Origin: Clostridiaceae bacterium
Lineage (GTDB): Bacteria > Bacillota > Clostridia > DSM-8532
DNA: 64,000 nucleotides
Assembly (NCBI GenBank): GCA_012521105.1
Contig: JAAYNA010000024.1
Location: forward strand, 1-64,000
Direction of reading: 5' to 3'
Part shown: in pieces, positions 31,350 to 51,604 of the stretch
Numbering within the stretch: the stretch's first letter is position 1
How the letters are laid out: the number at the start of each line of letters is the position of its first letter
Program-made: the position numbers and the translations under genes
Notes under the pieces: generated by a model
Seen by the model: the letters and a program-made list of their open reading frames with translations, nothing else
Told to the model about the DNA's origin: nothing
Databases searched by the model: none

Positions 31350-31426
31350 TAAATAAATGTATGAAACAAAAGAAAAATCATAAGGAAAATATCTTCACCA
31401 AAAGAGAATCACTGGAGACATGTAAC

Positions 31427-34027
31427 ATGAAAATAATTCGTTTGAAAACCAATCACAGAAGTGAACCATTGGGAATTGATGAAATACCCATATTCAGCTG
31501 GAATATTGAAACCCGAAAAAATAACTGGTATCAAAGAGCCTACCGTATACTGGTATCCGAAAGTATGGAAGATTTAAAGCAGGGTAACGGTACCATGTGG
31601 GACAGTGGTGTAGTTCAATCCGACGTAATGGCCAATATAAGGTATACCGGCAAAAGGTTTAAATCCGGAACCCGGTATTATTGGAAGGTTTTCGTATGGG
31701 ATAATGACAATGATTTTACCGAAAGTGCCCCGGCCTCTTTTGAAACAGGTCTGCTTTCTCAGGATGACTGGCATGGACAATGGATTGGTGAAACCCGGGA
31801 TCACAGCTATCACATATATAGAAAAACCTTTACTGTAAATAAGGAAGTTAAAAACGCCAGGCTGTATGTCTGTGGTCTTGGACATTATGAATTCTATCTC
31901 AATGGTTCAAAGATAGGAGACGCTGTACTGGAGCCGGGCTGGACAAATTACAACGAAACATGTCTGTATTCATGTTACGATATTACCAGATACCTGGCCG
32001 GCGGTGAAAATGCGGCAGGAATTATTCTTGGTGACGGAATGTTTAATGTTCCGGGAGGAAGGTATGTTTATTATGCCCGCTCCTTTGGCAAAATAAAATT
32101 CCTTGTACAGATGAATATTGAATATACCGATGGAACAACACAGCAGGTGGTATCCGACGAAAGCTGGAGGATGGCGGTAAGTCCTGTTAAATTTTCTTGT
32201 ATTTATGGCGGGGAGGACTATGATGCAAGGCTTGAACAGCCTGGATTCAGTGAACCCGATTTTATTGAGACACCTGAGTGGAAGTCTGTTGTTTTGGTTG
32301 AACCACCCAGGGGACGCCTTGTTGCTCAAAGCACACAGCCAATAAAAGTGATGGAAGAATACCGGCCTGTAGATGTGAAAGAAGTAGAACCGGGTAAATA
32401 TCTGTATGATCTGGGTAGAAATTTTTCGGGATGGGTGAGGATTCAACTTAGAGATAATGCCGGTACTCCAGGAAATGTGATTACAATGATACCCGGTGAA
32501 ATTTTGACAAAGGACGGTCTGCCCGATCAAAGGATAACGGGCAGAGGTTATTACTGGCAGTATATTACAAATAGCAAACTCAAACAAAGCTATGCACCAA
32601 AGTTTACATATTACGGTTTTCGTTATGTTCTTGTAACAGGTGCGGTACCTTGTGAATTTGCATCTGAAAATGAAACTAAACCTGTCGTTGAGAGTATGGT
32701 GGGTGAATTTATTTATCCCGATGTTGAAAAAAATGGTGAATTTACATGCTCTAATCCATTATTTAACCAGATTCATCATATCATTGTACAGGCCATTAAA
32801 AGTAATATGAAAAGTATATTCACCGACTGCCCTCACAGGGAAAAGCTGGGGTGGCTGGAGCAGACCCACCTGATAGGCCCGGCAGTTTTATATAATTTTG
32901 ATGTCCACACACTTTATAAAAAGATTCAGAAAGATATGGCCCAGTCCCAATACGAAAAAGGTCTGGTACCAAGTACCTGCCCCGAATATGTTGTTTTTGG
33001 GTACCATGAGGGTTTTGTTGATTCTCCTGAGTGGGGAAGTGCATGTATAATTAATCCCTGGTATATATACAAAAGAACAGGCGATACTTCGTTATTTACA
33101 GAACATTATGACATGATGAAACGATATCTGGACTATCTGACAAGCCGCACCCACCACCATGTACTTCATCACGGGTTGGGTGACTGGCTGGATATCGGGC
33201 CTGTTCCACCCTATTCACAGAATACACCCGTGCCCGTTATAGCTACAGCAATATATTACTATGATCTGAAAATTATGGCCGAAGTGGCCAAATTATTGGG
33301 AAAAGCTGGGGATGAAGCTGCGTATCGCAGACTTATGGAACAGGTCTATAAAGAATACAATCTTCAGTTCTTTGATGACCAGACATACAGGTATGCAACG
33401 GGGAGTCAGGCAGCTCAGGCAATCAGTCTTGTTACCGGTCTTGTAGATGAAAAGAACGGTGAAAAGGTATTGGAGCATTTAGTAAAGGACATTACTGCCC
33501 GCGGGTTTTCAACAACCGCAGGAGATATCGGGCATCCCTTTGTCGTAGCAGCACTTATGATGAACGGACGCTCGGATATTGTCAATAAAATGACAAATAT
33601 AACCGACAAGCCGGGTTATGGCTACCAGGTGATGCATGGAGCCACAACTCTGGCCGAGAACTGGGACGGACCAAACAAAGAAAACCCCCAGGGCTCTCAG
33701 AATCATTTCATGCTTGGAAGCATAGAGGAGTGGTTTTATGCCGGTCTGGCAGGGTTAATGAGTATACGTACAGAAAACCCCTTCGACAGAATCCAGATTA
33801 GGCCACATTTTGCAAAAGGCTGCGATGAGGTAAAGGCATGGACGAGGCATATTTATGGAATTGTACGAATTCACTGGAAGAGAACCAAAAACGATATAAC
33901 AGTGGAACTGGACATTCCACCCAATGTTACAGCTGAATTTATTTCGGAAACCGATAGCAGCAGGCGGGTATTTGGTTCGGGCCACCACAGCTTTCAATTA
34001 AAGGCCGATGCTGGCACTCATGATTAA
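31427..34027 (+). CDS. Glycoside hydrolase family 78 alpha-L-rhamnosidase
   Basis: An 866-residue cytoplasmic enzyme. The N-terminal part contains the Bac_rhamnosid_N jelly roll (RLYVCGLGHYEFYLNGSKIG, DGMFNVPGGRY), and the catalytic (alpha/alpha)6 domain shows TDCPHREKLGWLEQTH, LGDWLDIGP and a late NHFMLGSIEEWFYAGLAG segment, all GH78-like. It should release L-rhamnose with inversion. No signal peptide. The frame opens at 31361, but ATG 31427 has CTGGAGA upstream and starts where family homology starts. It heads the enzyme genes of the importer operon. Confidence 0.92.
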   Translation: MKIIRLKTNHRSEPLGIDEIPIFSWNIETRKNNWYQRAYRILVSESMEDLKQGNGTMWDSGVVQSDVMANIRYTGKRFKSGTRYYWKVFVWDNDNDFTESAPASFETGLLSQDDWHGQWIGETRDHSYHIYRKTFTVNKEVKNARLYVCGLGHYEFYLNGSKIGDAVLEPGWTNYNETCLYSCYDITRYLAGGENAAGIILGDGMFNVPGGRYVYYARSFGKIKFLVQMNIEYTDGTTQQVVSDESWRMAVSPVKFSCIYGGEDYDARLEQPGFSEPDFIETPEWKSVVLVEPPRGRLVAQSTQPIKVMEEYRPVDVKEVEPGKYLYDLGRNFSGWVRIQLRDNAGTPGNVITMIPGEILTKDGLPDQRITGRGYYWQYITNSKLKQSYAPKFTYYGFRYVLVTGAVPCEFASENETKPVVESMVGEFIYPDVEKNGEFTCSNPLFNQIHHIIVQAIKSNMKSIFTDCPHREKLGWLEQTHLIGPAVLYNFDVHTLYKKIQKDMAQSQYEKGLVPSTCPEYVVFGYHEGFVDSPEWGSACIINPWYIYKRTGDTSLFTEHYDMMKRYLDYLTSRTHHHVLHHGLGDWLDIGPVPPYSQNTPVPVIATAIYYYDLKIMAEVAKLLGKAGDEAAYRRLMEQVYKEYNLQFFDDQTYRYATGSQAAQAISLVTGLVDEKNGEKVLEHLVKDITARGFSTTAGDIGHPFVVAALMMNGRSDIVNKMTNITDKPGYGYQVMHGATTLAENWDGPNKENPQGSQNHFMLGSIEEWFYAGLAGLMSIRTENPFDRIQIRPHFAKGCDEVKAWTRHIYGIVRIHWKRTKNDITVELDIPPNVTAEFISETDSSRRVFGSGHHSFQLKADAGTHD

Positions 34028-35160: not shown

Positions 35161-37770
35161 ATGAAAAAGCTGAAGGAAGTATTGAACAATAAGTCGAAAA
35201 ACTATATACTCCCATTTTTCTGGATGCATGGTGAACCCCATGATATTCTCCGGGAAGAATTAGACAGAATTGAAGAATGCGGGATACGGGAAGTTTGTAT
35301 TGAATCAAGGCCTCACCCTGACTTTTGCGGACCGCACTGGTGGAAAGATATAGACTTTATTATTTCAGAGGCCAGGAAAAGGGGAATGAGGGTATGGATT
35401 CTGGATGACGATAAATTCCCCACAGGCCACGCCAATGGAGCCTATGAAAAAAAATATCCCGAGCTTTCCAAAATATATCTTGCCGAACGTCATATGGATG
35501 TTATCGGACCCGTCAAAAATGGTGTAGTATTGATACAGCCTTTTCTTGGCAAGGACGGAAAACTTATTTCTGTGCTGGCATGTCCCAAGACCGATACCGA
35601 AACCTTGGATATTTCAGCCGACGGTATTATAGATTTGACCGAAAATGTATATAACGGTTTTGTATATTTTGATCTGCCGAAGGGAAGATATCGTCTTTTT
35701 GTACTGTTCACAACCAGGAAAGGAGGCGGCAGGGAAAATTATATTAATCTCATTGATCGCGACTCGGTGCGGGTTTTGATAGACGAGGTTTATGAAAAGC
35801 ATTATGAGCGGTATAAGGATGAATTTGGAAAGACGCTGGCAGGTTTTTTCTCTGACGAGCCTGAGCTGGGGAATACCCCCGGCTATGATTTCCATGAAAC
35901 CCTTGGGAAACCCGATGTCCGGCTGCCCTGGAGCAATGCTCTTGAAACAGCTCTTAAAGAGCTTTGGGGTGAGGATTTTGCAAAAAACCTCCCTGCGCTG
36001 TGGTATGGAATGGGAGAGAAAACCATACCCGTCAGATCACAGTACATGGACCAGGTAACACGCCTGGTGCGGGAATGTTTTTCAGAGCAGCTGGGGAAAT
36101 GGTGTGAAGAACATAATGTTGAGTACATAGGCCACATAATAGAAGACGACAATGCCCATACCAGACTTGGATGCAGTATCGGCCATTATTTCAGGGAACA
36201 GAAGGGACAGCACAGGTCGGGTGTTGATCTGGTTCATTTCCAGATCCTTCCGGGATTTAATGAAAAGGTACACCGGTGGCTTTCGTGGGAAACAGATGGC
36301 GAGTTTTTTCATTACGGTCTGGCAAAGCTGGGCAGCTCCAGCGCACATATTGATCCTAAAAAGCAGGGAAGAGCAATTTGCGAGATTTTTGGCAATTTCG
36401 GCTGGGCCGAAGGAGTAAGATTGATGAAATGGCTCACCGACCATATGCTTGTTCGTGGGATCAATCATTTTGTGCCCCATGCCTTCTCACCCAAATTTCC
36501 CGACAGGGACTGCCCACCGCATTTTTATGCAAGGGGGAATAATCCCGGCTATCGCTTTTTTGCACATTTAATGCGATATATGAACAGGGTTTGCCATCTT
36601 TTGAACGACGGAATACATTTGACAGACGCAGCTGTATTGTATCATGCCGAAGCTGAATGGACCGGTGAAGAAACTATGCTGTTCCAGAAACCTGTCAGAA
36701 AGCTTCTTGAAGCACAACTGGACTGCGATGTTATTCCTGCCGATGTTTTTGAAGAAGACTATGTACATGTGGAAAATAGCAGACTTTTTATTCACAGGCA
36801 GCAGTATGGCTCATTAATTATTCCGGGATGCAGGTGCATTCCGGCTAATGTGGCAGACTTTGTAATAAAGGCAGCGAAAGCAGGGCTACCCGTTTATATA
36901 ACCGGAATTACGCCTGAAAAAGATACGCTGAACAGACCTTTACCCGAAGATTTTAAGAAATCTTACACAGCTTTACCGTTGGAGGATTTATCCGAAACCA
37001 TCCGGAAAAATCAGAAAACCCAAATCAGCTGCAGTACAGTGAATAAAGATCTTCGTTTCCTTTGCTATAAACATGATGATGGAATATTGTACTTTTTCTT
37101 TAATGAAAGTGTTGATAATATGGTTGATACCGAGATAACCATTCACAATGGCTCATATTCACAGATTACTGAGTATGATGCCCTTAATAACCGGGTACAT
37201 CATTACCGTCTGGAACAAAACCGTTTCAGGCTGGTTCTGGAACCCAGCCAATCAACTGTTTTTATTCTCGGTAATAGTTTTAAAGGACGGGTAGAAAGCC
37301 GGCCGGTTCGCACAGGATTTACCGTAATAGATTGTGACTGGACGGTATCTGCCAGTTCTACCAAAGATTATCCTGATTTCAAAAAGATACTGGAGATTCC
37401 GAAAGGTGAGGAAATGCCAAATCTGAACGGCCCGGGTTATTTTCCCGAGTTCTCAGGTTTCTACCGCTATGAAGGTTCCTTCGAAGTGAATGTTGGAGAA
37501 GATGCACAAGTGATGATAAAATTCCCAAGAATCAATGACTGTGCCCTTGTTTTTGTAAATGGCAAAGAGGCAGGTATGGTTATTGGAAGTCCAAACCGGC
37601 TGGATATCACCGGGCTTGTGAAGCCGGGTGTTAATGAGCTTGTAGTAGATGTCAGCAATACATTGGTCTGGCAGCTTAAGGATGGTGCATCAACACAGAT
37701 GCAAATTGAACCAACGGGTATAACCGAAAAACCTTTGCTGGAAGTTTACCACATCAAATCTGACCGATAA
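35161..37770 (+). CDS. GH106-like glycoside hydrolase (rhamnosidase-related TIM barrel with jelly-roll domain)
   Basis: An 869-residue cytoplasmic protein. The N-terminal half looks like the GH106-related TIM barrel: LPFFWMHGEP, the alternating ECGIREVCIESRPH, WWKDIDFIISEARKRGMRVW and LDDDKFPTG, then GFFSDEPELG with candidate catalytic acids. The C-terminal part has a galactose-binding jelly roll (LVFVNGKEAGMVIGSPNRLD). GH106 enzymes are alpha-L-rhamnosidases, several acting on rhamnogalacturonan II, but this lineage is distant. ATG 35161 has only a weak GGAAAA site; the good AGGAGG at 35117 instead precedes TTG-TAA. Confidence 0.7.
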   Translation: MKKLKEVLNNKSKNYILPFFWMHGEPHDILREELDRIEECGIREVCIESRPHPDFCGPHWWKDIDFIISEARKRGMRVWILDDDKFPTGHANGAYEKKYPELSKIYLAERHMDVIGPVKNGVVLIQPFLGKDGKLISVLACPKTDTETLDISADGIIDLTENVYNGFVYFDLPKGRYRLFVLFTTRKGGGRENYINLIDRDSVRVLIDEVYEKHYERYKDEFGKTLAGFFSDEPELGNTPGYDFHETLGKPDVRLPWSNALETALKELWGEDFAKNLPALWYGMGEKTIPVRSQYMDQVTRLVRECFSEQLGKWCEEHNVEYIGHIIEDDNAHTRLGCSIGHYFREQKGQHRSGVDLVHFQILPGFNEKVHRWLSWETDGEFFHYGLAKLGSSSAHIDPKKQGRAICEIFGNFGWAEGVRLMKWLTDHMLVRGINHFVPHAFSPKFPDRDCPPHFYARGNNPGYRFFAHLMRYMNRVCHLLNDGIHLTDAAVLYHAEAEWTGEETMLFQKPVRKLLEAQLDCDVIPADVFEEDYVHVENSRLFIHRQQYGSLIIPGCRCIPANVADFVIKAAKAGLPVYITGITPEKDTLNRPLPEDFKKSYTALPLEDLSETIRKNQKTQISCSTVNKDLRFLCYKHDDGILYFFFNESVDNMVDTEITIHNGSYSQITEYDALNNRVHHYRLEQNRFRLVLEPSQSTVFILGNSFKGRVESRPVRTGFTVIDCDWTVSASSTKDYPDFKKILEIPKGEEMPNLNGPGYFPEFSGFYRYEGSFEVNVGEDAQVMIKFPRINDCALVFVNGKEAGMVIGSPNRLDITGLVKPGVNELVVDVSNTLVWQLKDGASTQMQIEPTGITEKPLLEVYHIKSDR

Positions 37771-37818: not shown

Positions 37819-40800
37819 TTGGAAAGGTTTAAAAACATTAGCTTGAGGCTACCACCACTGCCCGATTTTGTTGAAAATATCAACAATCCCGTTATTGAGA
37901 TTAATCCTGATTGGAGGATTAATGATTTTTCAGATAAAAGAAGTGAAAAGTTAGTTTCGGAAATCACAAAAGACGAGCCCTTCCTGCTGGATGAAGAGGG
38001 TCTAAGATATCAGACGTATATTTCAATTCCCGAGGAATTTCAAAACAAAACCATTCTGCTCAGGTTTAACAGAACAGGGTGTATTGCCACCGTCCGGGTG
38101 GATGGAAAATTCATCCGCAATCATTATGGCGGCCACACACAATGGGACTGCGACATAACCGATGTGGCTCAGAATAAGGCGGGTGTAGAGGTTCAACTGA
38201 ATTTACAGGACCGACCGGGAGAATTAAGCCCCTATGCGAAAGCCGGGGTGTTCGGAAGTATTAAGCTTATTGCACTGCCCCGATCCTACATACAGAGTCT
38301 TTATACTGAGCCGGTAAGAGACAGTGATGGGAACTATTCTCTTAATTTATATTATGGGACGGTAATTGGAGAAAAAGAAGGGGAGTACACTCTGAAGGCT
38401 TATATTTCAGATCAGAATTCTGTGGATATTGCCACCGCCGATTTGGATATTAATAATACCCGGCAGAAAATTTTCTGTGGAAAGGTACAGGAATGGGACA
38501 GTGAACACCCGAACCTGTACAGATTGAAGCTCAGGCTTATGAACGGGGAAAAGATCCTAGAAGAAACCGTTCAGAACGTGGGTTTTCGAAGTATTGAGAA
38601 GAATTCAGGACAGATTCTTTGGAACGGGCGTCCGTTAAAGCTCAGAGGTATTAATTACCGTGAACCTCTTTGCGATGAACCATACACAGATATAAAGCGG
38701 GATCTTATGCTTTTCAAGCAAGCCAATATTAACTATATCCGCGGGCTTTTCTATCCATTCAGCGACGAATTCCTTTCACTGTGCGATGAAATGGGTTTTT
38801 ATGTAGAAAACATGGCCCCGGCCTGGGAGGTGGACAGCCAGACCAGATCCACACAAAATGCACCCGAATACAGGGATGTGTATTTGAATCAGTTGTCGGA
38901 AATGCTTCAGACAGGCCTTTCACATGTAAGCGTTACAATCTGGTCACTGGGTAGTGACAGTACATGGGGAAGTAATTTCAGGGAAGGATACAGGATGATT
39001 AAAGCCATTGACGGTACAAGGCCTGTAAATTTCCATTTCCCGATGTCAATACCCGAAGAGGAGCCTCAAATGGATGTGTGGTCGGTTGCTCATGCAGACT
39101 ATCGCCTTCCCCTTGATAAACACTACGATACTATGGTTATCTTTCATACCCATGGCAGTGACAATCCAATAGGATATGCCACCGGAAGTGCCACAGGCTA
39201 CCAGATACCGGTGCTTCATACGGTATTTGCCCACCTTCCATGCCATAACCGGGATCAAATTGAAAGAGATCCGGGAATCCATGAATTCTGGGGAGAAAGT
39301 ATCAAAAGATTCTGGGATATAATGTGGAAAACCAGAGGAACACTGGGTGGGGCGGTAATGGCTGCTGTGGATGAAGACGGCACTTTTTCGCCCAGGCTGA
39401 GAGATCATCATTGGGGAATTTTAAACGCGAAGCATGAACCAAAACCTGAATATTACCACATTAAAATGGCCTATGCTCCGGTGAAGGTATCAAATATTGA
39501 GATAAAGGAAGATAAACTGCGGTTTACCGTTGAAAATAGGTTCAACCACACCAACCTGAATGAAGTTACTGCCAAATATGTCCGGGACGGTAAAGAAAAA
39601 GTTTTTCAGCTGGAACTTGCCCCCGGTGAAGTTAAAACAGTGGAGTTAAGCCTGGATCCAAAGGGTGAAGGTAACAGAACTGATATTTGTTTTGACTACC
39701 GTAATATCCGTGTTTACGAAACTGCGGTGTTTTCGCAGAAAAGGGAACTGAAGGCAAGAGCTGAAGATGTAAAACCTGAATCTTTCAAAATCACCGAAGA
39801 TGACAGAACCATATTTATTGAAAACAATATCTGCTCCTTTTTATTCTGCAAAAAGACCGCGTTAATGACAGAAGGAAGACTGGACGGGAAACTGGTTCTG
39901 TGTGGCGGGCCATATCTTCAGGCAACCCGTTTGAAACTGGAACAATGGGTGGGAACCTGGATATCCTGCACAATGAGCGAGAAAGGGGCAAGGGTGGTAC
40001 TGGAAGGCAGGTATGGAAAGGTATGCTCGGTAAGATTTGTACTGGATATAGGAATTAACGGGGAGATTGATACCCTGTGTACAATTCTTTCACTGTCAAA
40101 GCACATGCCTCATACTGTGAAGGCAATTATCGGTGTTGACCCCGGCGGACTGGATGAGCTGGGAATACATTATATTGTTCCCGGAAGCTTCAGCCGGCTT
40201 GAATGGAGACGTGAAGGCCTGTGGCCTGTTTACCCGGATGATCATATAGGTCGTCCTGAAGGTCTGGCATTAGCTGAAAATCCTGATGATTTCCGCAGCA
40301 TGAAACATCATATATATGGGGCCATATTAACAGACCCTGAGAACAGGACGGGTATCAAAGTTGTGTCCGACAAAACCCACTCCATACGCCTTGAAGCACA
40401 GCCCGATCCCGATTGTATAATTGATGACCGTGACGAAAGAATTCAGTACCATGGAACCTGGTACAGTATGGATGACTATTGCGGCAATTACTGTGATACC
40501 GAAACACTGAGCCGGACAAAAGGCGATTACCTGGAGTTTGGATTTAAAGGAACAGGCATAAAAGTGTACGGACCTTTGGATGTTCTGCACGGAAAATGCA
40601 ATATTTCCATTGACGGCAATATTGTGGCAGAAAACATCAGCCAATACTTAAGTCCTGTTGATTTTCCGGGAGCCAGTCGGGGCTATGAAAAACGGTACAG
40701 GGTTCTGCTCTTTGAAATTACCGGTCTTGAATATAAAGAACACGTAATGCGTATTACCGTTACCGGTGAACATGAAGCCGGTGCTCAGGGGAGCTATGTT

Positions 40801-40992
40801 TCAATAGACTATTTTGTCGTTGAAAAACCTGATACCGATGGGCAGCTGAAACTGATTATAAATAACGATTATAACTATACCCGTTTGGTTCGCGGCAATT
40901 TTATGAGGCCAAAGGTGGAATTCAAAGTATCGGATCAGTTCGGAAACCGCATCAGGTTGATAAAACTGAAAGAGGACGGTGAAGATTTATGA
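37819..40992 (+). CDS. GH2-family protein lacking both catalytic glutamates (probable pseudoenzyme)
   Basis: A 1057-residue protein with GH2 order: sugar-binding domain (GCIATVRVDGKFIRNHYGGH), Ig-like domain, TIM barrel and extra C-terminal beta domains. It is paralogous to the next gene along most of its length, for example FWGESIKRFWD and IINNDYNYTRL. The acid/base Asn-Glu reads Ser-Asp380 (IWSLGSDS), the nucleophile position is Val469 (LHTVFAH), and the RxSHYP histidine segment reads RGLFYPF. Canonical hydrolysis is therefore unlikely; glycan binding, complex formation or changed chemistry are options. TTG 37819 follows GGGGTGAT. The stop overlaps the next start (ATGA). Confidence 0.85.
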   Translation: MERFKNISLRLPPLPDFVENINNPVIEINPDWRINDFSDKRSEKLVSEITKDEPFLLDEEGLRYQTYISIPEEFQNKTILLRFNRTGCIATVRVDGKFIRNHYGGHTQWDCDITDVAQNKAGVEVQLNLQDRPGELSPYAKAGVFGSIKLIALPRSYIQSLYTEPVRDSDGNYSLNLYYGTVIGEKEGEYTLKAYISDQNSVDIATADLDINNTRQKIFCGKVQEWDSEHPNLYRLKLRLMNGEKILEETVQNVGFRSIEKNSGQILWNGRPLKLRGINYREPLCDEPYTDIKRDLMLFKQANINYIRGLFYPFSDEFLSLCDEMGFYVENMAPAWEVDSQTRSTQNAPEYRDVYLNQLSEMLQTGLSHVSVTIWSLGSDSTWGSNFREGYRMIKAIDGTRPVNFHFPMSIPEEEPQMDVWSVAHADYRLPLDKHYDTMVIFHTHGSDNPIGYATGSATGYQIPVLHTVFAHLPCHNRDQIERDPGIHEFWGESIKRFWDIMWKTRGTLGGAVMAAVDEDGTFSPRLRDHHWGILNAKHEPKPEYYHIKMAYAPVKVSNIEIKEDKLRFTVENRFNHTNLNEVTAKYVRDGKEKVFQLELAPGEVKTVELSLDPKGEGNRTDICFDYRNIRVYETAVFSQKRELKARAEDVKPESFKITEDDRTIFIENNICSFLFCKKTALMTEGRLDGKLVLCGGPYLQATRLKLEQWVGTWISCTMSEKGARVVLEGRYGKVCSVRFVLDIGINGEIDTLCTILSLSKHMPHTVKAIIGVDPGGLDELGIHYIVPGSFSRLEWRREGLWPVYPDDHIGRPEGLALAENPDDFRSMKHHIYGAILTDPENRTGIKVVSDKTHSIRLEAQPDPDCIIDDRDERIQYHGTWYSMDDYCGNYCDTETLSRTKGDYLEFGFKGTGIKVYGPLDVLHGKCNISIDGNIVAENISQYLSPVDFPGASRGYEKRYRVLLFEITGLEYKEHVMRITVTGEHEAGAQGSYVSIDYFVVEKPDTDGQLKLIINNDYNYTRLVRGNFMRPKVEFKVSDQFGNRIRLIKLKEDGEDL

Positions 40993-43900
40993 ATTTGAAA
41001 TATAAAGAACCCGAAATACCCAAATTGGTTCCAAAACCCTCATATGTAAAGGGGGTTGTAAATCCTGTGATATCGCTGGATGGTACGTGGAAGATCATTC
41101 ATACCGATGATTTTGCAAAAGCCCGTACCGACGAAAACTGGATGGACTGGGCCGACATAACCGTCCCGTCGGATATGAGGGTACACCGAAACAGAATAGA
41201 AGACTGGACAGGCTTATTTGTATATAAAAAGATGGTGACCGTGCCCGATGAAATGGCGGATATGGACCTGATACTGAGGTTTGAAGGTGTTAACGGATTT
41301 GCAAAGGTTTATATAGATGACAAGTTTGTTATGGAGCATAAAAACGGGTTTCTTACATGGAATCTCAATATAACCAGGTTTGTAAACCGAAAGAGGCAAT
41401 TTGTTATTACTGTTGAGGTGGATAACATTTCAGATAAAGTCTGCTATCACAACCGGGGAGGAATAATCCGCAGTTCAATGATTTATGCCCTGCCGAAAAG
41501 TCATTTTACAATGCTGCATACCACAACAACCATGCAGGGCAGCCGTGATTTATGGAATTTAAAGATCCATTTTGATATATCGGTTCACCACCGGGATGTC
41601 GGTTATAAGTTTGAACTGGTCGATACCGACGGCAGAATAATTATGGACAATATACCCGTTGTACAGCTTCCGGGAGGCTCAACAGACGGTTTGGCAGAAG
41701 CAGTTGTACAAAACCCCCTGTTATGGGATGCCGAACATCCCTGGTTATACTATGTCAGGGCATCTGTATACAACCGGGGAGAGTTTGTGCAGCAGGTTAT
41801 GCATCGGTTTGGATTCAGACAGATTACCCGGGTGGGGAACCAGCTGTTTGTAAATGGAGACGAAGTTAAGCTTCGGGGTTCGTGCCGGCATGAAGTTACG
41901 CCGCTGAACGGCCGTGCAGTTGCCAGGGAGGATATAGAGCAGGACATTGCACTGTTTAAGGAAGCTAACTGCAACTATATCCGCACTTCCCACTATCCGC
42001 CCAGTGAATACTTTCTGGAATTGTGTGATGAAAAGGGAATTTATGTTGAAAACGAACTGGATACGGCTTTCATAGCAAGAACTTTAGACTATACCCAGCG
42101 GGACCCCGAACATACAGAAAGATATCTGTCGCTGTTTGCCGAACTTCTGGCAAGGGACTACAGTCATCCCTGTGTACTGATCTGGTCATTGTGCAACGAA
42201 TCCTTCGGAGGATACAATTTTGATTTATTGAACCGTTTTGCAAAAAGGATGGATCCGACCCGTCCAACGAAGTTCAGCTATCCGATGACCATGAGACAGG
42301 AACATGAACCTGTTGACATATGGAGTATTCACTATTCAAATCTTGAGGAGGATTTATCAAAGAAATGTGATAATGTCAGCGTGGGTTATACGCCCGGAAA
42401 GGATGTTCCGGTAATTCATGACGAATATGCCCACATTCCCTGCTATAACAGGACTGAACACAGACGGGATCCAAATATACGGAATTTCTGGGGAGAGAGC
42501 ATCAAACGCTTCTGGGACAAGATATGGAATACCAAGGGAGCATTAGGGGGTGCCATTTGGGCAGGAATTGACGAAACCAATCTGTTCTTAGGGGGGGATG
42601 TTTCTCTTGAATGGGGAATCATAGACATCTGGAGGAGGAGAAAGCCAGAACACTATTTAACAAGAAAGGCCTATTCACCTGTGGTATTACGTCCTGAAAC
42701 ATTACAGATAAAGGATGGCGAACTGTCTTTCGAGGTTGAAAACCGCTTTTGCCACACCAATCTTTCTGAAGTCACCATGGTTTGGAGCTGGGGAAGCCAA
42801 AACGGGAAAACATTATGCCCCGATGTAAAACCAAGAGGTTTCGGACGGGTATGTATTACAAAATACGGGGATGCAGAATTGAACCAGCCAATCAATATTT
42901 ATTTTGTAGATCCCTTTGGACTGCAGGTGGACGAGTACAGAATTGTGCCCGAAGATTATCTGAACACTGGGGAAAAGTCGGATAGTAAACTTTGGCATGC
43001 ATCAGACAATAATCAGTCAGTAATAAGATATGACGAAGAGGGTAACGAGTTTACTCTGACAGCAGGCTTTTTTGCTCTGACCTTTGATAAAAAAACAGGG
43101 TTACTTAAGAATGGTTCGGTAGATGGTGAAACAGTTCTTATAGGGGGCCCGTTCCTGAACACACCTTACCTGAAGCTTGGACAATGGATAATGTCGGACT
43201 TTGACATACGATTAAAAGAGCCTTTAAAATGCGAAATAAAAATTAGCGGAAGTTACGGGACTCAGATGGATGTGACCTTTTTAATCACAATTTTTGCCGA
43301 TGGTACTGTACATACCCGTTACACAATAGATGAGCTTAAAGTGCCGCTGCCAAAACAGGTGAAACTTCGTGTGGGAGTTGACTGCGGAGGCCTGGACGAA
43401 ATAGGTGTATATTTTATAGCCAGTCCGGTCATGGATACATTCCAATGGAGAAGAAAAGGCCAATGGACAGTTTATCCCGACGATCATATCGGCCGTTGCG
43501 AGGGTATTGCGAAGAGGAGAAGCGTCGGAAGTGAATTTGGCAAAAAGCCTGAAATACCCTGGTGTGAAGAGATGAAAAGCTATATCCTGAATGGGAAATA
43601 TGATGTGGATTACAGGGGAACCAACGACTTCAGAAGCCTTAAGGCCAATATTCTTTCTGCATCGCTGTACAGAGCCGGAGGCAAGGGTGAAATTGAGGCA
43701 GTATCCGGGGGCAGCCATTCTGTTAGGCTGGAGATACAGGAGCCTGAAAACAGAATTATACCAAATGATGATCCCCGTATTATCTATAAAGGCAACTGGT
43801 ACAGGATTGATGATTACACCGGCAGCCTGAACGGTACAGAGATGTGGACAAAGGAAGCGGGAGCATATGCAGAGTTTACCTTTGAAGGCACCGGAATTGT

Positions 43901-44312
43901 CTGGTATGGACCGGTTGACACTATTTATGGCACTGCCCGTGTATATATTGACGGGGAGCTTATGGACGGAGCTGTCAATCAGAAGGTGAACGGGGTTGAT
44001 TTCCCGGGTTCAGCACCGGGTTATGACAAGAAATACAATTACCCGGTTTATTCAATTACCGGTCTTGAAAACAAAGCCCATACCATACGTATAGAGACTA
44101 CAGGAGAGAAAAGCGGAGGAGTAAAGGATTCCTACATTGTTCTGGACCATTTCAGGGTTATTTGTGAAGAAAATGAGGAACCTGTCGGCTTCATTATCAA
44201 CAACGACTACAATTATCCTCATATTGCATGGGGTAACTACTGTAAGCCCGCAATAATGATAGATACAGGCTATAGTAACAGTGTTGTTATGAGGCTGAAA
44301 AAAAGAGTATAA
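40989..44312 (+). CDS. Glycoside hydrolase family 2 enzyme (intact catalytic site)
   Basis: An 1107-residue GH2 enzyme. After the sugar-binding and Ig-like domains the barrel shows KLRGSCRHEVTP, YIRTSHYPPSEYFLELCDE, the acid/base IWSLCNES (Glu404) and nucleophile VIHDEYAH (Glu479), so retaining hydrolysis is expected. Beta-galactosidase, beta-glucuronidase or arabinopyranosidase are all possible; specificity is not readable. Long C-terminal beta domains end in IINNDYNYPH, shared with the upstream paralogue. No signal peptide. The 4-nt overlap with that paralogue suggests coupled, roughly equal synthesis. Last gene of the importer block. Confidence 0.9.
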   Translation: MNLKYKEPEIPKLVPKPSYVKGVVNPVISLDGTWKIIHTDDFAKARTDENWMDWADITVPSDMRVHRNRIEDWTGLFVYKKMVTVPDEMADMDLILRFEGVNGFAKVYIDDKFVMEHKNGFLTWNLNITRFVNRKRQFVITVEVDNISDKVCYHNRGGIIRSSMIYALPKSHFTMLHTTTTMQGSRDLWNLKIHFDISVHHRDVGYKFELVDTDGRIIMDNIPVVQLPGGSTDGLAEAVVQNPLLWDAEHPWLYYVRASVYNRGEFVQQVMHRFGFRQITRVGNQLFVNGDEVKLRGSCRHEVTPLNGRAVAREDIEQDIALFKEANCNYIRTSHYPPSEYFLELCDEKGIYVENELDTAFIARTLDYTQRDPEHTERYLSLFAELLARDYSHPCVLIWSLCNESFGGYNFDLLNRFAKRMDPTRPTKFSYPMTMRQEHEPVDIWSIHYSNLEEDLSKKCDNVSVGYTPGKDVPVIHDEYAHIPCYNRTEHRRDPNIRNFWGESIKRFWDKIWNTKGALGGAIWAGIDETNLFLGGDVSLEWGIIDIWRRRKPEHYLTRKAYSPVVLRPETLQIKDGELSFEVENRFCHTNLSEVTMVWSWGSQNGKTLCPDVKPRGFGRVCITKYGDAELNQPINIYFVDPFGLQVDEYRIVPEDYLNTGEKSDSKLWHASDNNQSVIRYDEEGNEFTLTAGFFALTFDKKTGLLKNGSVDGETVLIGGPFLNTPYLKLGQWIMSDFDIRLKEPLKCEIKISGSYGTQMDVTFLITIFADGTVHTRYTIDELKVPLPKQVKLRVGVDCGGLDEIGVYFIASPVMDTFQWRRKGQWTVYPDDHIGRCEGIAKRRSVGSEFGKKPEIPWCEEMKSYILNGKYDVDYRGTNDFRSLKANILSASLYRAGGKGEIEAVSGGSHSVRLEIQEPENRIIPNDDPRIIYKGNWYRIDDYTGSLNGTEMWTKEAGAYAEFTFEGTGIVWYGPVDTIYGTARVYIDGELMDGAVNQKVNGVDFPGSAPGYDKKYNYPVYSITGLENKAHTIRIETTGEKSGGVKDSYIVLDHFRVICEENEEPVGFIINNDYNYPHIAWGNYCKPAIMIDTGYSNSVVMRLKKRV

Positions 44313-44409: not shown

Positions 44410-45081
44410 ATGAAAGTTGCAACTGTCTATACAAGTACCACCCCGGAATTAATACAAATGGTGGATGACTATCTTGAAAAACATTTTCAGGGCGAGGACC
44501 TGACAATAATGAAATATCAGGATCCCAGCATTTTAAAGGAAGCCATTGATAACGGATATGTAACAAAGGGTTGTGCCAGACGCCTTTTGGATCTTTACGA
44601 AAAAGCATGTGATGACGGGGCACAGATTCTTTTCAATATCTGCTCATCGGTCGGTGATGTGGCAAAACTGGCAAAGCCTTTATATGAAATGACGGGCGTT
44701 AAATTTGTTCGAATTGATGAAGATATGGCAATGGCTGCTGTTGAGGCAGGCAGCCGGATTGGGGTTTTAGCCACCCTTCCCACCACTTTGGAACCTACAA
44801 AGCGCCTGGTTCAGGATTGCGCCGACAGAATAGGGAAGAAAATCGAGATCATAGACGCCCTTGCAGAAGGTGCCTTTGGCCTTGACCAGGAGCAGTTCAA
44901 GAAAAAGCTGATTCAGACAGGTCAAAAAGTTAAGGATTGGATAGATGTGCTTATTCTTGCCCAGGGTTCAATGGCTTATGCCGAGGAAGCAGTATCACAG
45001 GCGCTGGGGCTTCGGGTTTTCTCCAGTATAAGGTACGGTACTGCTGCAGTGAAAAAAGCTGCTGACAGTATAGAAAAATAA
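44410..45081 (+). CDS. Aspartate/glutamate racemase superfamily protein with one catalytic cysteine
   Basis: A 223-residue protein of the Asp/Glu/hydantoin racemase fold. The first catalytic cysteine is present (LFNICSSVGD, Cys78), but at the second site, where racemases have a Cys, it reads ILAQGSMAYAEE. Two-base racemisation is therefore unlikely; decarboxylase, isomerase or lyase chemistry using one cysteine is possible. AAGGTGAT precedes ATG 44410. It is the first gene of a sugar operon without amino-acid genes, so its substrate is probably a sugar-derived acid, by inference. Confidence 0.8.
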   Translation: MKVATVYTSTTPELIQMVDDYLEKHFQGEDLTIMKYQDPSILKEAIDNGYVTKGCARRLLDLYEKACDDGAQILFNICSSVGDVAKLAKPLYEMTGVKFVRIDEDMAMAAVEAGSRIGVLATLPTTLEPTKRLVQDCADRIGKKIEIIDALAEGAFGLDQEQFKKKLIQTGQKVKDWIDVLILAQGSMAYAEEAVSQALGLRVFSSIRYGTAAVKKAADSIEK

Positions 45082-46050: not shown

Positions 46051-46869
46051 ATGACTACAAAAGAATTAAAACAAATGGCCAACAGGCTTCGTATGGATGT
46101 GGTTGAAACAATCCACCATGTTGAGGATGGACATCCCGGACCCTGTATGTCCATTGCCGAAATAATCACTGTACTTTATTTCAGCGAAATGAATATCCGC
46201 CCCGAAGAGCCCCGATGGCCACTACGTGACAGATGTATTCTTTCAAAGGGTCACGCCTGCCCCATTCAATATGCCGCAATGGCCCGAAAAGGGTATTTTG
46301 ACATGGATGAGTTGAAAAAACTGCGTAAACTGGATGGAATACTGCAGGGGCATCCCGACATGAATAAAACTCCCGGGATTGACTCTGTTTCGGGTTCGCT
46401 GGGCAATGGTGTGGGTATCGGCCTGGGCATTGCTTTGGGATGCAGAATGCAGGGCATTGATAATTTTGTTTATGTAATTATTGGTGACGGAGAACAGCAG
46501 GAAGGCGTTGTATGGGAAGCTGCAATGGCTGCAGCCAAACACAAGGTGGGAAACCTTATTGTGCTTGCCGATTGTAACAATAACCAGTCGGGGGGTAAGG
46601 TCACAGAGCTGAGTTCCCTTTATCCGGCGTCTGAAAAATGGAGTTCCTTTCAATGGCATGTTCAGGAAATTGACGGCCATGACGTTGAAGCAATAAAAAA
46701 TGCCATCGCAAATGCCAAAGCCGTTACAGACAGGCCTTCATATATTGAATGCAGAACCATAAAAGGCAAGAACATTCCCTATATGGAAAACAATAATGCA
46801 TGGCATAAGAGAGTTCCAACAAAGGAAGAGGTTGAAATTGCAAGAAAATATCTGGGAGGTGCGGTATGA
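46051..46869 (+). CDS. Transketolase, N-terminal (thiamine-binding) subunit
   Basis: A 272-residue protein equal to the pyrophosphate-binding half of transketolase. Seen are KGHACPIQYAAMARKGY, GSLGNGVGIGLGIALG and the thiamine-diphosphate motif GDGEQQEGVVWEAAMAAAKH ending in LADCNNNQ. Split transketolases are common in Firmicutes and Archaea and work as heterotetramers with the C-terminal subunit. It overlaps the next gene by 4 nt, giving balanced synthesis. A transketolase inside a glycosidase locus suggests a dedicated substrate rather than general pentose-phosphate duty. Confidence 0.93.
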   Translation: MTTKELKQMANRLRMDVVETIHHVEDGHPGPCMSIAEIITVLYFSEMNIRPEEPRWPLRDRCILSKGHACPIQYAAMARKGYFDMDELKKLRKLDGILQGHPDMNKTPGIDSVSGSLGNGVGIGLGIALGCRMQGIDNFVYVIIGDGEQQEGVVWEAAMAAAKHKVGNLIVLADCNNNQSGGKVTELSSLYPASEKWSSFQWHVQEIDGHDVEAIKNAIANAKAVTDRPSYIECRTIKGKNIPYMENNNAWHKRVPTKEEVEIARKYLGGAV

Positions 46870-47804
46870 AAACAAAAAGTACACGTGAAGCAGCAATGCG
46901 TGCCATAATAGAATTGGCCGGACAGGATGAACGTATTGTAATCGTATCTCCTGATTCACTTCTGGCATCCAGAGCCGTACCTTTTCTGGAAAGATTCCCC
47001 GACAGATTAATAGAGGTTGGAATTGCAGAGCAAAATGCCGTTCTGGTAGCAGCCGGGCTTGCAACTACCGGAATGAAGCCTGTTGTCATCTCTTATGCAG
47101 GGTTTCTGACCATGAGGGCATGCGAGCAAATCCGTACCTTTGTTGCCTACCCGGGCTTAAATGTAAAATTTATCGGTTTAAACGGGGGTATGCTGGGTGG
47201 CGAAAGAGAGGGAGTTACCCATCAGTTTTATGAAGATGTTGGAATTTTGCGTTCAATGCCAGGTGTAAGTGTTATTACTCCGGCAGATGCAGGGCAGGCA
47301 TATAAAGCCACAAAAGCAATGTTTATGCGGGAGGAACCCTGTTACATGCGTTTGGGAAGTGGCCGTGAACCCGAAGTTTTTCCCGACGATACGCCCTTTG
47401 AGTTCGGGAAAATCCGGGTTGTTAAGCATTACGGTGACGATGTGGCCATTTTCGCGTCGGGCTTTATTATGAACAGGGCTATTGAGGCTTTGGAGCTTTT
47501 GAAGGCTGAGGGTATTAATGGTCTTATTGCAGATGTCTCCACTGTAAAGCCCATTGACAGCGAAACTGTTACTGAAATACTGAAGAGAACAAACTGTGCA
47601 GTTGCCGTTGAAGATCACAATATTTACGGTGGTATGTCTTCGGCTGTCAGCGAAATATCTTCACTTTACCATCCCTGCCGCGTAATACGTCTTGGTCTTA
47701 ACGATATATACCCGCGCAGTGGTCATGCTGATGAACTGCTGGATGCTTACGGTTTGTCGGTACAGTCAATAGTAGATGGAGCAAAGAAGGCAATGAGCAA
47801 GTAA
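46866..47804 (+). CDS. Transketolase, C-terminal (pyrimidine-binding) subunit
   Basis: The 312-residue second half of transketolase. It has the PYR domain with VGIAEQNAVLVAAGLA (the glutamate that activates thiamine diphosphate), FIGLNGGMLGGEREGVTHQ, a GVSVITPADAGQAYKATK segment and the C-terminal transketolase domain (VAVEDHNIYGGMSSAV). ATGA overlap with the N-terminal subunit. Similar split pairs act on apulose-4-phosphate (AptAB) and sulfofructose (SqwGH) in characterised pathways; specificity here is unknown. Confidence 0.93.
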   Translation: MKTKSTREAAMRAIIELAGQDERIVIVSPDSLLASRAVPFLERFPDRLIEVGIAEQNAVLVAAGLATTGMKPVVISYAGFLTMRACEQIRTFVAYPGLNVKFIGLNGGMLGGEREGVTHQFYEDVGILRSMPGVSVITPADAGQAYKATKAMFMREEPCYMRLGSGREPEVFPDDTPFEFGKIRVVKHYGDDVAIFASGFIMNRAIEALELLKAEGINGLIADVSTVKPIDSETVTEILKRTNCAVAVEDHNIYGGMSSAVSEISSLYHPCRVIRLGLNDIYPRSGHADELLDAYGLSVQSIVDGAKKAMSK

Positions 47805-48596: not shown

Positions 48597-49649
48597 ATGG
48601 GATATTTTAAACGGGTGGCTGAACTGACACCAACACGTTTATGGATAAACAATGTAACGGCAGAACAGGCCAGGAGAGGAATAAAAGCCGGTGCTGTCGG
48701 TTGCACGCAGAATCCATCCTATGTGTCAAAAATGCTCCAGTTTGACGGGTCCTTATGCCAGCGTTTGTTTGACAAGTGGATTGAAATTGAAGATGATGAC
48801 AATGAAGTATTAATACAGGTCCAGGCAGAGCTGGTAGGGCTTATTGCCAAAGAATTTCTGCCCCTTTATGAAGAGTCCTGCGGTAAGCTGGGCTATGTAA
48901 CAATTCAGGGTGACCCCTTCAATGAAACAACCGAATCTATTATGCGTCAGGCAGAGATAGCAAGACAATACGGTCCCAATATTATGATCAAAATACCGGT
49001 TGTGCCCGAAGGTATTAAAGCAATCTCTGCTCTTGCCGGCGAAGGCATACCTTTGTGCTTAACTGAAGTTTTTGCACTGCGACAGGCCATAGACATTTGC
49101 GAAGCGCTGCTGGATGCAACAGAAGGGAAAGTAAAGCCTGTTGCATACCTTGCACATATTGCAGGCATTTATGATGAGTACCTGGGTAATTATGTGAAGG
49201 AAAACAATATCGATATTCTGCCCGATGTTTTATGGCATGCCGGGATTGCATCAGCAAAAAAGGTATACGCAGTGGTGAAGGAAAGAAGATACCCGGTTGA
49301 GTTTTTGGGTGGCGGTGCCAGAGGAACACATCATTTTACCGAAATGGTTGGTGCTGAAGCATCTGTCACAATTAACTGGGCTGGAATGGGCGAAACACTG
49401 GATGCTTCCGATACCCTTGTTATACAACGCTTTTTTATGCCAACGCCTCATACAGTTATTGATCAGTTGCTTGATAAATTGCCCGATTTCAGAAAGGGTT
49501 ATTTTGAAAATGGCATAACACCGGATGAGTTTGAATCTTTTGGTCCGGTTGCATTATTCAGAAACACTTTTGAAAAGGGATGGAAGGAAGCACGGGATGC
49601 CATTTCCAAAAGACGTGCAGAATTAAAAAATGGAGGTAAGTCATGTTAA
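48597..49649 (+). CDS. Transaldolase-family protein
   Basis: A 350-residue class I aldolase-fold protein. The Schiff-base lysine is Lys132 in NIMIKIPVVPEGIKAI; the N-terminal LTPTRLWINNV and GCTQNPSYVSKM and the later GGGARGTHHFTEMVG are transaldolase-like. It is longer than small fructose-6-phosphate aldolases and diverges from canonical TalB, so it may split or transfer the dihydroxyacetone unit of an unusual ketose. ACAGGAGG precedes ATG 48597. It overlaps GH127 by 7 nt. Confidence 0.85.
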   Translation: MGYFKRVAELTPTRLWINNVTAEQARRGIKAGAVGCTQNPSYVSKMLQFDGSLCQRLFDKWIEIEDDDNEVLIQVQAELVGLIAKEFLPLYEESCGKLGYVTIQGDPFNETTESIMRQAEIARQYGPNIMIKIPVVPEGIKAISALAGEGIPLCLTEVFALRQAIDICEALLDATEGKVKPVAYLAHIAGIYDEYLGNYVKENNIDILPDVLWHAGIASAKKVYAVVKERRYPVEFLGGGARGTHHFTEMVGAEASVTINWAGMGETLDASDTLVIQRFFMPTPHTVIDQLLDKLPDFRKGYFENGITPDEFESFGPVALFRNTFEKGWKEARDAISKRRAELKNGGKSC

Positions 49650-51604
49650 CAAACACCGAACATTCACGTTATGCAAAAACTTACTCGCTACCGTGGAATG
49701 CGGTTAACTGGACCGGTGGCATATGGGCTGACGTATTCAAAACCTGTGCCGAAAATACAATTCCGCATATTAGGAAAATGTTTGAAAGCAAAGATATCAG
49801 TCATGTTGTAGAAAACTTCAGAATAGCAGCGCGGGAAAAAGAAGGCAGATTCAACGGAACTCCTTTTGGTGACGGTGATTTTTACAAGTGGATGGAGGGA
49901 GCTATCTATGTAGCCTGTAAAAATAACGATGAAAAATTATTAAAGGTGATTGATGAATATGTTGATTTAATCAGCCGCGCCCAGCTTGATGACGGGTATA
50001 TCTCTACGAAACAGATAATTGGGGAGATGAACAACGAAGATGTATCCCGCCTTGGTGATATTAATGACTTTGAAGTATATAATTTTGGTCATTTATTCAC
50101 CACTGCCTGCATCTACAAACGCCTTACCGGAAAAGACAATTTGATGAATGTTGCTGTTAAAGCTGCCAACTATTTAGAGAAAACATATCAGGAAGCAGCA
50201 AGGACAGGTGAGGTGAAAACTGCAGTTTGTCCTTCCCATTACATGGGCTTGATTGAAATGTACCGTACAACAGGCGAAAATCGTTTTCTTGACCTTGCAC
50301 AGCTGTCAATTACCCTCAGGGATTCGGTGAAAAATGGTACCGATGATAATCAGGACAGAATACCGCTTAAAGAGCACGAAAAAATAGTAGGACATGCAGT
50401 GCGTTCAAACTACCTGTATGCCGGTGTGGCAGATTTATACGCTGAAACGGGTGACAGTGATTACCTTGATATGCTCAACAAGGTATGGAAAAACCTCGTG
50501 GAACAAAAAATATATGTGACCGGAGGCTGCGGTGCATTGTATAACGGAGTCTCGCCTTATGGTAATTTCTGGATAGATCAGAAGGTACATCAGGCTTATG
50601 GTCATGAGTATCAACTTCCCAATATTACAGCCTATAATGAAACCTGCGCGTCAGTGGGCAGTGTATTATGGGCATACAGAATGTTTACAATTCAGCCCGA
50701 AGCACACTACTTTGACATAATTGAAAAAACAATGCTGAACGTGAACCTTGCTGCTATCAGCATTGACGGACAAAAGTTTTTCTATGAAAACATGCAAAGA
50801 AGGGCCAAAAAACTTCCCTTTGAACTGTGCTGGCCATTAGAGAGAAAAGAGTATATATCAAGCTTCTGCTGCCCTCCAAATCTGGCCAGGCTTTTATCCG
50901 AAACATCGGAATACGCATATTCCTTATCCGAGGATACTGTGTGGCTGGGAATGTATGGAGAGAATGAAGCCCAAATTGAGCTGAAAAATGGTGCTTCCTT
51001 TACACTGGTTCAGAAAACTCAATACCCCTACTGTGGAAAAATACATTTTTCATTTAAGGATGCAAACAGCAAAGCCTTTAAACTCAATATTCGCATACCC
51101 GACTGGGTTGAAAGCGGGAGTATATCTGTTAACGGTAATGTTGTAAAGGAAATTTCGGTTCAGGACGCTTCTACATATTATACAGTGGAAATTGAAGATC
51201 CTTCAAAATCCGATATAACAGTTTATTTCGACATGCCTGTCAGGTTTACTGTTGCCCATCCTCTTGTTGAATCCAATACCAACCAGGTAGCCGTTGAAAG
51301 AGGGCCTATAGTATATTGCATTGAGTCACAGGACACAGAACTTGAGACCCTTGATGATTTAATGCTGAAGATAGACGGGGAATTTACACCTGTGGAATAC
51401 GAAATTATGGGCAGAAAAATGATCGCCCTCGAAGGGGAAGCCTGGCGAATTAAAAGAGATTCATACAATCCTGAAAAATTATATCAGCCGATGAAGTTTA
51501 AAGGGCTGGATCAGGTATCCATCCGTCTTATTCCGTACCATGCCTGGGATAACAGAGGGTTTGGTGAGATGAAAATATGGCTGCCTGTTGCAATTGGACA
51601 GTGA
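49643..51604 (+). CDS. Glycoside hydrolase family 127 (beta-L-arabinofuranosidase type)
   Basis: A 653-residue cytoplasmic GH127 (DUF1680) enzyme. The zinc/cysteine active site is complete: ETC (Glu333, Cys335 in YNETCASVG) and CC (Cys409, Cys410 in SFCCPPNLAR), where one cysteine acts as nucleophile in characterised members. The N-terminal FWDVF-like WADVF and the central AQLDDGYIS are also typical. Members release beta-L-arabinofuranose or aceric acid from plant glycans. TGGAGG precedes ATG 49643. Last gene of the operon; a strong terminator follows. Confidence 0.93.
   Translation: MLTNTEHSRYAKTYSLPWNAVNWTGGIWADVFKTCAENTIPHIRKMFESKDISHVVENFRIAAREKEGRFNGTPFGDGDFYKWMEGAIYVACKNNDEKLLKVIDEYVDLISRAQLDDGYISTKQIIGEMNNEDVSRLGDINDFEVYNFGHLFTTACIYKRLTGKDNLMNVAVKAANYLEKTYQEAARTGEVKTAVCPSHYMGLIEMYRTTGENRFLDLAQLSITLRDSVKNGTDDNQDRIPLKEHEKIVGHAVRSNYLYAGVADLYAETGDSDYLDMLNKVWKNLVEQKIYVTGGCGALYNGVSPYGNFWIDQKVHQAYGHEYQLPNITAYNETCASVGSVLWAYRMFTIQPEAHYFDIIEKTMLNVNLAAISIDGQKFFYENMQRRAKKLPFELCWPLERKEYISSFCCPPNLARLLSETSEYAYSLSEDTVWLGMYGENEAQIELKNGASFTLVQKTQYPYCGKIHFSFKDANSKAFKLNIRIPDWVESGSISVNGNVVKEISVQDASTYYTVEIEDPSKSDITVYFDMPVRFTVAHPLVESNTNQVAVERGPIVYCIESQDTELETLDDLMLKIDGEFTPVEYEIMGRKMIALEGEAWRIKRDSYNPEKLYQPMKFKGLDQVSIRLIPYHAWDNRGFGEMKIWLPVAIGQ

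Follow-up and report, generated by a model that had tools for sequence, protein, structure and literature searches.

A tandem pair of GH2 paralogues in seven genomes of three bacterial families, with an upstream member lacking the catalytic nucleophile

Pseudo-glycosidases of families other than GH2, such as klotho and the chitolectins, act as ligand-binding sensors, chaperones or inhibitors. Among the GH2 hydrolases, typified by LacZ and comprising 23 subfamilies, the nucleophile has been reported as an invariant glutamate across the reviewed subfamilies, while the NE motif with the acid/base residue becomes SD in GH2_16 and SE in GH2_14, two subfamilies of which members have been assayed, and in GH2_21 the acid/base has probably been replaced by another Glu (PMC12243196). 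Two adjacent GH2-type genes are also seen in the LacL/LacM beta-galactosidase, which is a single protein divided between two genes (PMC5145203), the first ending after the barrel and the second encoding only the C-terminal sandwich. The plant isoamylases ISA1 and ISA2 of the GH13 family are a paralogue pair, conserved over distant species, in which one member has replaced catalytic residues; here a complex has been proven, and both stability and activity depend on the inactive paralogue (PMC3787081). Leaf-beetle GH28 pseudoenzymes (PMC6549527) and heparanase 2 of the GH79 family (PMC12406646) are likewise glycosidase homologues without activity, but these are eukaryotic, unlike the bacterial pair described below. 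A search of the open-access literature found no GH2 pseudoenzyme, no GH2 pair with one dead member and no pseudoenzymes in polysaccharide utilisation loci. Likewise, we know of no earlier inactive-plus-active GH2 pair, nor of an overlapping gene pair with an active paralogue for the GH28 pseudoenzymes or heparanase 2.

A pair of complete GH2 paralogues and its relatives

The window, a stretch of 64,000 nucleotides from a Clostridiaceae bacterium, contains two adjacent GH2 genes with the following features:

37819..40992, forward strand: P0001, the upstream GH2 paralogue without the nucleophile, 1057 aa, TTG start (ORF, Pfam, pairwise alignment)
38956..38958, forward strand: Asp380 codon of P0001, the acid/base position, D/E in 7/7 members of its clade
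39133..39186, forward strand: conserved insert M439-G456 (MxIxHxxGxxNxIGYxxG) of P0001, before the nucleophile strand and not in the intact partners
39223..39225, forward strand: Val469 codon of P0001, the nucleophile position, V/I/I/I/I/A/I among the seven members
40989..40992, forward strand: ATGA stop/start overlap of P0001 and P0002
40989..44312, forward strand: P0002, the intact GH2, 1107 aa, with Glu404 as acid/base and Glu479 as nucleophile (ORF, Pfam, alignment)
42198..42200, forward strand: Glu404 codon of P0002 (acid/base)
42423..42425, forward strand: Glu479 codon of P0002 (nucleophile)

The TTG start of P0001 is preceded by AAGGGG, and P0002 starts with ATG and runs for 1107 codons. 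An earlier note on this DNA had described a common domain order with long matching segments and an open upstream frame joined to the next gene by an ATGA overlap. This description holds: FWGESIKRFWD and NNDYNY occur in both proteins, which are 36% identical end to end in a pairwise alignment, and the upstream frame is open over 1057 codons up to the overlap at 40989-40992. The barrel domain PF02836 was recovered by Pfam in both (82.9 bits in P0001 and 135.3 bits in P0002, against a cut-off of 21), and the beta-sandwich domain PF00703 was found above its cut-off in P0001 (40.1 bits). Both genes are complete paralogues, each with its own barrel and alignable to the other over the full length, which rules out a split gene with the LacL/LacM layout, although the two might likewise make one enzyme. 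AlphaFold2 models built from four sequences (those of the window and of L025, introduced below) reached a mean pLDDT of 46.7 for P0001 and 50.7 for P0002 and did not resolve the barrel.

The same pair, with the dead gene first and the intact gene second, is present in seven genomes across three families, namely that of the window and six others. A scan with one genome per species recovered the arrangement on a Lachnospiraceae contig (locus L025); four further pairs come from the family of that genome (loci L053, L054, L055 and L056 of genomes G498, G795, G655 and G665, respectively), and the seventh from a genome of the same order and another family (G991, locus L071). The pair is present in each of the three genomes searched from the genus of G498. 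The upstream proteins of the six other genomes are 37-47% identical to P0001. Across some 1,690 genome searches, a figure that includes repeats, a member of one clade was never seen unaccompanied by a member of the other, the genome samples being draws from larger groups in which members may be missed. The partner in L025 stops at the contig end after 240 aa, and a contig end of the same genome encodes 341 aa from the C-terminus of a close relative. Some of the pair members derive from metagenome assemblies; however, sequencing error is an unlikely cause, because the seven frames are open in separate genomes. Recurrence of the same state in all seven is more than chance. Scans of IMG/VR with the dead-clade alignment and with an alignment of intact relatives returned no relative. 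In plasmid and phage collections, only distant GH2s with at most 29% identity to P0001 were among the matches listed, and the three plasmid GH2 loci examined among these were all intact.

Catalytic residues lost, kept and gained

Residue columns were defined by an alignment of 23 proteins, comprising the seven upstream proteins and 16 intact GH2s. Glu404 (in CNES) and Glu479 (in HDEYAH) of P0002 align with the catalytic residues of solved beta-galactosidases, and this protein has, along with the barrel, the GH2 nucleophile, NE motif, Arg, His, Tyr and Trp (E479, N403-E404, R332, H335, Y449 and W524). The letters given in the earlier note for these two columns in P0001, Asp380 (GSDS) and Val469 (HTVFAH), are correct. 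Its claim of a dead paralogue, however, stands only for the nucleophile. This column, in loop 7, is Glu in 16/16 intact GH2s and V, I, I, I, I, A and I in the seven upstream proteins, whereas the acid/base column of the latter reads D, E, E, E, D, D and D, a carboxylate in every case. A dead acid/base is unsupported because the S-D motif of the window's P0001 and the S-E motifs of its counterparts in L025, L053 and L054 match those known from GH2_16 and GH2_14. Similarly, the replacement of RTSHYPP by RGLFYPF and of CRHE by NYRE is confirmed, except that the Glu of CRHE is kept as Glu282.

Across the seven upstream proteins, the Asn of NE, just ahead of the acid/base column, gives way to S/S/S/S/H/A/G, the His of RTSHYP in the pocket to F/Y/K and the loop-8 Trp to M/L. 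Judged from these columns, P0001 has really lost its nucleophile, two pocket residues (His and Trp) and the Asn ahead of the acid/base residue. The Arg assisting the nucleophile (R308 of P0001) is present in 7/7. More generally, the pocket columns of P0002 (T/S/H 333-335, E356, N403, H448, E479 and W524) are gone in all seven upstream proteins, whereas fold residues such as N269, G277, N305, D323, E330, W375, G384, D484, W491, G507, D518 and E544 are retained in all of them; hence, the loss is centred on the catalytic pocket. All seven upstream proteins share a further 31 invariant residues that the partners lack, 25 of them within the barrel; these include R281, N347, N404, P412, H443, N449, Y453, D479 and H539. 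The upstream clade is like the GH2 hydrolases in domain order, barrel, nucleophile-site Arg and many fold residues and, in the window, L025, L053 and L054, in an S-D or S-E motif as known from GH2_16 or GH2_14, but differs in lacking the nucleophile Glu, in the replaced His, Trp and Asn, and in its extra conserved insert. As the nucleophile has been reported to be invariant across the GH2 subfamilies, this clade lies outside the described range of GH2.

Gene junction, descent and selection

The junction of the two genes is conserved, with the 4-nt ATGA joint seen in five loci (the window, L025, L053, L055 and L056). In L054 the junction is ATGAATAA, an 8-nt overlap, and in L071 the two genes lie 1 nt apart with no overlap. 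Most loci have, within the 3' end of the first gene, a purine-rich, GGAGG-like stretch resembling a ribosome-binding site. This anatomy suggests that translation of the pair is coupled.

In a maximum-likelihood tree, the seven dead proteins form one group and the six intact partners another, each with support of 100/100, and the branches of ten further intact GH2s attach between the two groups. If the tree is rooted on these ten, the dead and intact clades are sisters that stem from one tandem duplication. Two neighbouring GH2s from the wider group to which these proteins belong also occur in genome G113 (L028) and in Phocaeicola massiliensis OY726023 (L029), but these pairs have the acid/base and nucleophile in both copies and are separate duplications on the tree. 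Therefore, tandem GH2 pairs arise repeatedly in the wider group without loss of catalysis.

The dead genes are under purifying selection: comparisons among those of L025, L053 and L054 gave dN/dS values (NG86) of 0.128, 0.131 and 0.162, and the intact partners of L053 and L054 gave 0.089, figures that are rough because dS exceeds 1 for these pairs, yet far from 1, deeper pairs being saturated at silent sites. The earlier note had taken the upstream frame to be maintained, as against a recent decay betrayed by relatives with both glutamates restored or by a dN/dS near 1. The nucleophile is missing throughout the clade, dN/dS lies at 0.13-0.16 and the frames are open in seven genomes; the duplication is old and not a case of recent decay, and recent pseudogenisation is ruled out for the clade as a whole by these values together with the seven open frames. 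The dead gene has the higher rate of evolution, about 1.7 times that of its partner (dN of 0.192 versus 0.112 between L053 and L054). The N-terminal domain (domain 1) is gone in the upstream proteins of L055 and L056, where the gene upstream leaves no room for it, and segment 558-650 is mostly missing in five members. Divergence of the dead and intact proteins runs in parallel (mirror-tree correlation, r = 0.97), which we do not count as evidence of binding because co-inheritance gives the same correlation.

Locus context and possible roles of the upstream paralogue

Several neighbours of the pair in the window encode further carbohydrate-related proteins and a racemase-like protein:

31361..34027, forward strand: GH78-type alpha-L-rhamnosidase, with a homologue beside the pair in L025, L055 and L071
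34052..35074, forward strand: GH137-like protein, matching the N-terminal part of the model for rhamnogalacturonan II (RG-II) beta-glucuronidase/beta-L-arabinofuranosidase
35161..37770, forward strand: distant GH106-like alpha-L-rhamnosidase, directly upstream of the pair
44410..45081, forward strand: Asp/Glu/hydantoin racemase-like protein, with a homologue near the pair in L053, L054 and L056
49643..51604, forward strand: GH127 protein with the aceric acid hydrolase as nearest model, and a homologue near the pair in L053, L054, L056 and L071

Distant GH106-like proteins and GH42 enzymes are also found around the pairs. The GH137-like proteins match the RG-II GlucurArabfur model with up to 313 bits, in L071, and the GH127 proteins score 792.7 bits (window) and 723.8 bits (L056) against the aceric acid hydrolase model, both below its cut-off of 950. 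To our knowledge, aceric acid is found only in RG-II; with this hydrolase as the nearest model of the GH127 protein, the gene content of the window locus resembles that of RG-II side-chain loci. Inspection by eye found no signal peptide in P0001 or P0002, so both GH2s should be cytoplasmic and act on imported oligosaccharides, and a cell-surface glycan-binding role for P0001 is unlikely.

We favour, with a probability of roughly 0.5, the explanation that P0001 no longer hydrolyses and has been remodelled into a subunit of the intact GH2, P0002. On this view, the pair would go back to a single ancient tandem duplication. By the time the locus came to be distributed over three or more bacterial families, the first copy would already have been stripped of its nucleophile Glu and of most of the -1 subsite, and its barrel pocket would then have been rebuilt around the new invariant residues with retention of the fold. 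Overlapping translation would keep the production of P0001 matched to that of the intact copy, to which it most likely binds as a non-catalytic subunit. The constant gene order, the purifying selection, the replaced pocket in a retained fold, the gene junction and the strict pairing speak for this reading. Of the roles raised in the earlier note, a glycan-binding or regulatory subunit of the active enzyme or a new mechanism, that of subunit or regulator is accordingly the likeliest. In this capacity it may stabilise P0002, complete its active site or present RG-II-like pectin side-chain oligosaccharides taken up by the cell. ISA1 and ISA2 offer a precedent for a pair that functions as suggested here, but whereas they belong to another family and form a proven complex, for P0001 and P0002 we infer one.

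The main rival, which draws on the retention of the carboxylate and the Arg and on the appearance of a new set of conserved residues, is that P0001 is still an enzyme whose chemistry has been relocated to a new or external nucleophile, for example Asp479 of loop 7, His443 or Tyr453 of the insert, water (in an inverting mode) or phosphate. In its favour, column 380 is acidic in 7/7 while the nucleophile column never is, R308 is universal in the clade, and R281, N404, H443, N449, Y453, D479 and H539 are newly invariant; moreover, an S-D or S-E motif does not preclude activity, and in GH2_21 another Glu has probably taken the place of the acid/base (PMC12243196). However, we regard this as possible but on the whole unlikely, with the nucleophile being invariant in the reviewed GH2 subfamilies (PMC12243196) and domain 1 missing in two of the seven members, a loss more in keeping with a subunit than with an exo-enzyme working alone. 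A bolder version, in which a GH2-derived family without the GH2 nucleophile follows another catalytic route through the acid/base carboxylate, H443/N449/Y453 and Asp479, in complex with a classical GH2 and on RG-II side chains, appears quite doubtful. The rebuilt, conserved pocket would also befit a protein that works independently of its partner as ligand-binding sensor, chaperone or inhibitor, in the manner of a pseudo-glycosidase lectin, but the strict pairing and gene overlap with an intact paralogue, and a domain search that found no added signalling or DNA-binding domain, make such a role improbable. That P0001 is merely a decaying duplicate without function is hardly credible: its faster evolution (dN of 0.19 versus 0.11 between L053 and L054) and the domains lost in some members point that way, against which stand the dN/dS of 0.13-0.16, the seven genomes with open frames and the new invariant residues.

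Two observations run counter to the subunit reading, namely that overlap and co-occurrence are also expected for two enzymes of one pathway, and that the acid/base carboxylate, kept in 7/7, is unneeded by a purely structural subunit.

The conserved twin in seven genomes suggests a repurposed partner rather than a decaying gene. Current annotation would probably label the proteins of the upstream clade beta-galactosidases. If P0001 is catalytic, it would be an example of a retaining glycosidase changing its mechanism. If instead it is a subunit, this would be the first inactive-plus-active GH2 pair known to us, and the intact enzyme should be assayed together with its partner, as a pair.

Intact GH2 proteins at other loci

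Two tandem, overlapping GH2 genes of the same wider group as the GH2 pair of the window are seen in genome G113 (locus L028, 7977-15222). Each of their products retains both catalytic glutamates, and the maximum-likelihood tree places the duplication behind them as a separate event. Adjoining GH2s, both intact and of 998 and 1143 aa, are also present in Phocaeicola massiliensis OY726023 (L029, 7764-14207), a sequence labelled as a plasmid, with a gene upstream of them that, judged by eye, resembles the enolase superfamily. Additionally, two Lachnospiraceae genomes from the family of G405 code for giant GH2s of 1843 aa (L058, 537-6068) and 1765 aa (L059, 3597-8894), which combine intact catalytic residues with long additional parts.

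Glycosidase neighbours of the pair

The window also encodes a GH127 protein (49643-51604), the closest model of which is aceric acid hydrolase; in four further genomes (L053, L054, L056 and L071) a homologue of this protein likewise lies near the GH2 pair. Distant GH106-like proteins adjoin the pair in L053 (2146-5295) and L071 (6276-9500), where they are long (about 1050-1075 aa), whereas a shorter one occupies that place in the window.

A split transketolase

Two overlapping genes (window 46051-47804) together constitute one split transketolase, the first specifying the N-terminal half and the second the pyrimidine-binding and C-terminal half, with a xylose-isomerase-like TIM barrel gene upstream. 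We conjecture that this enzyme may take part in breaking down an unusual branched sugar, for example apiose.
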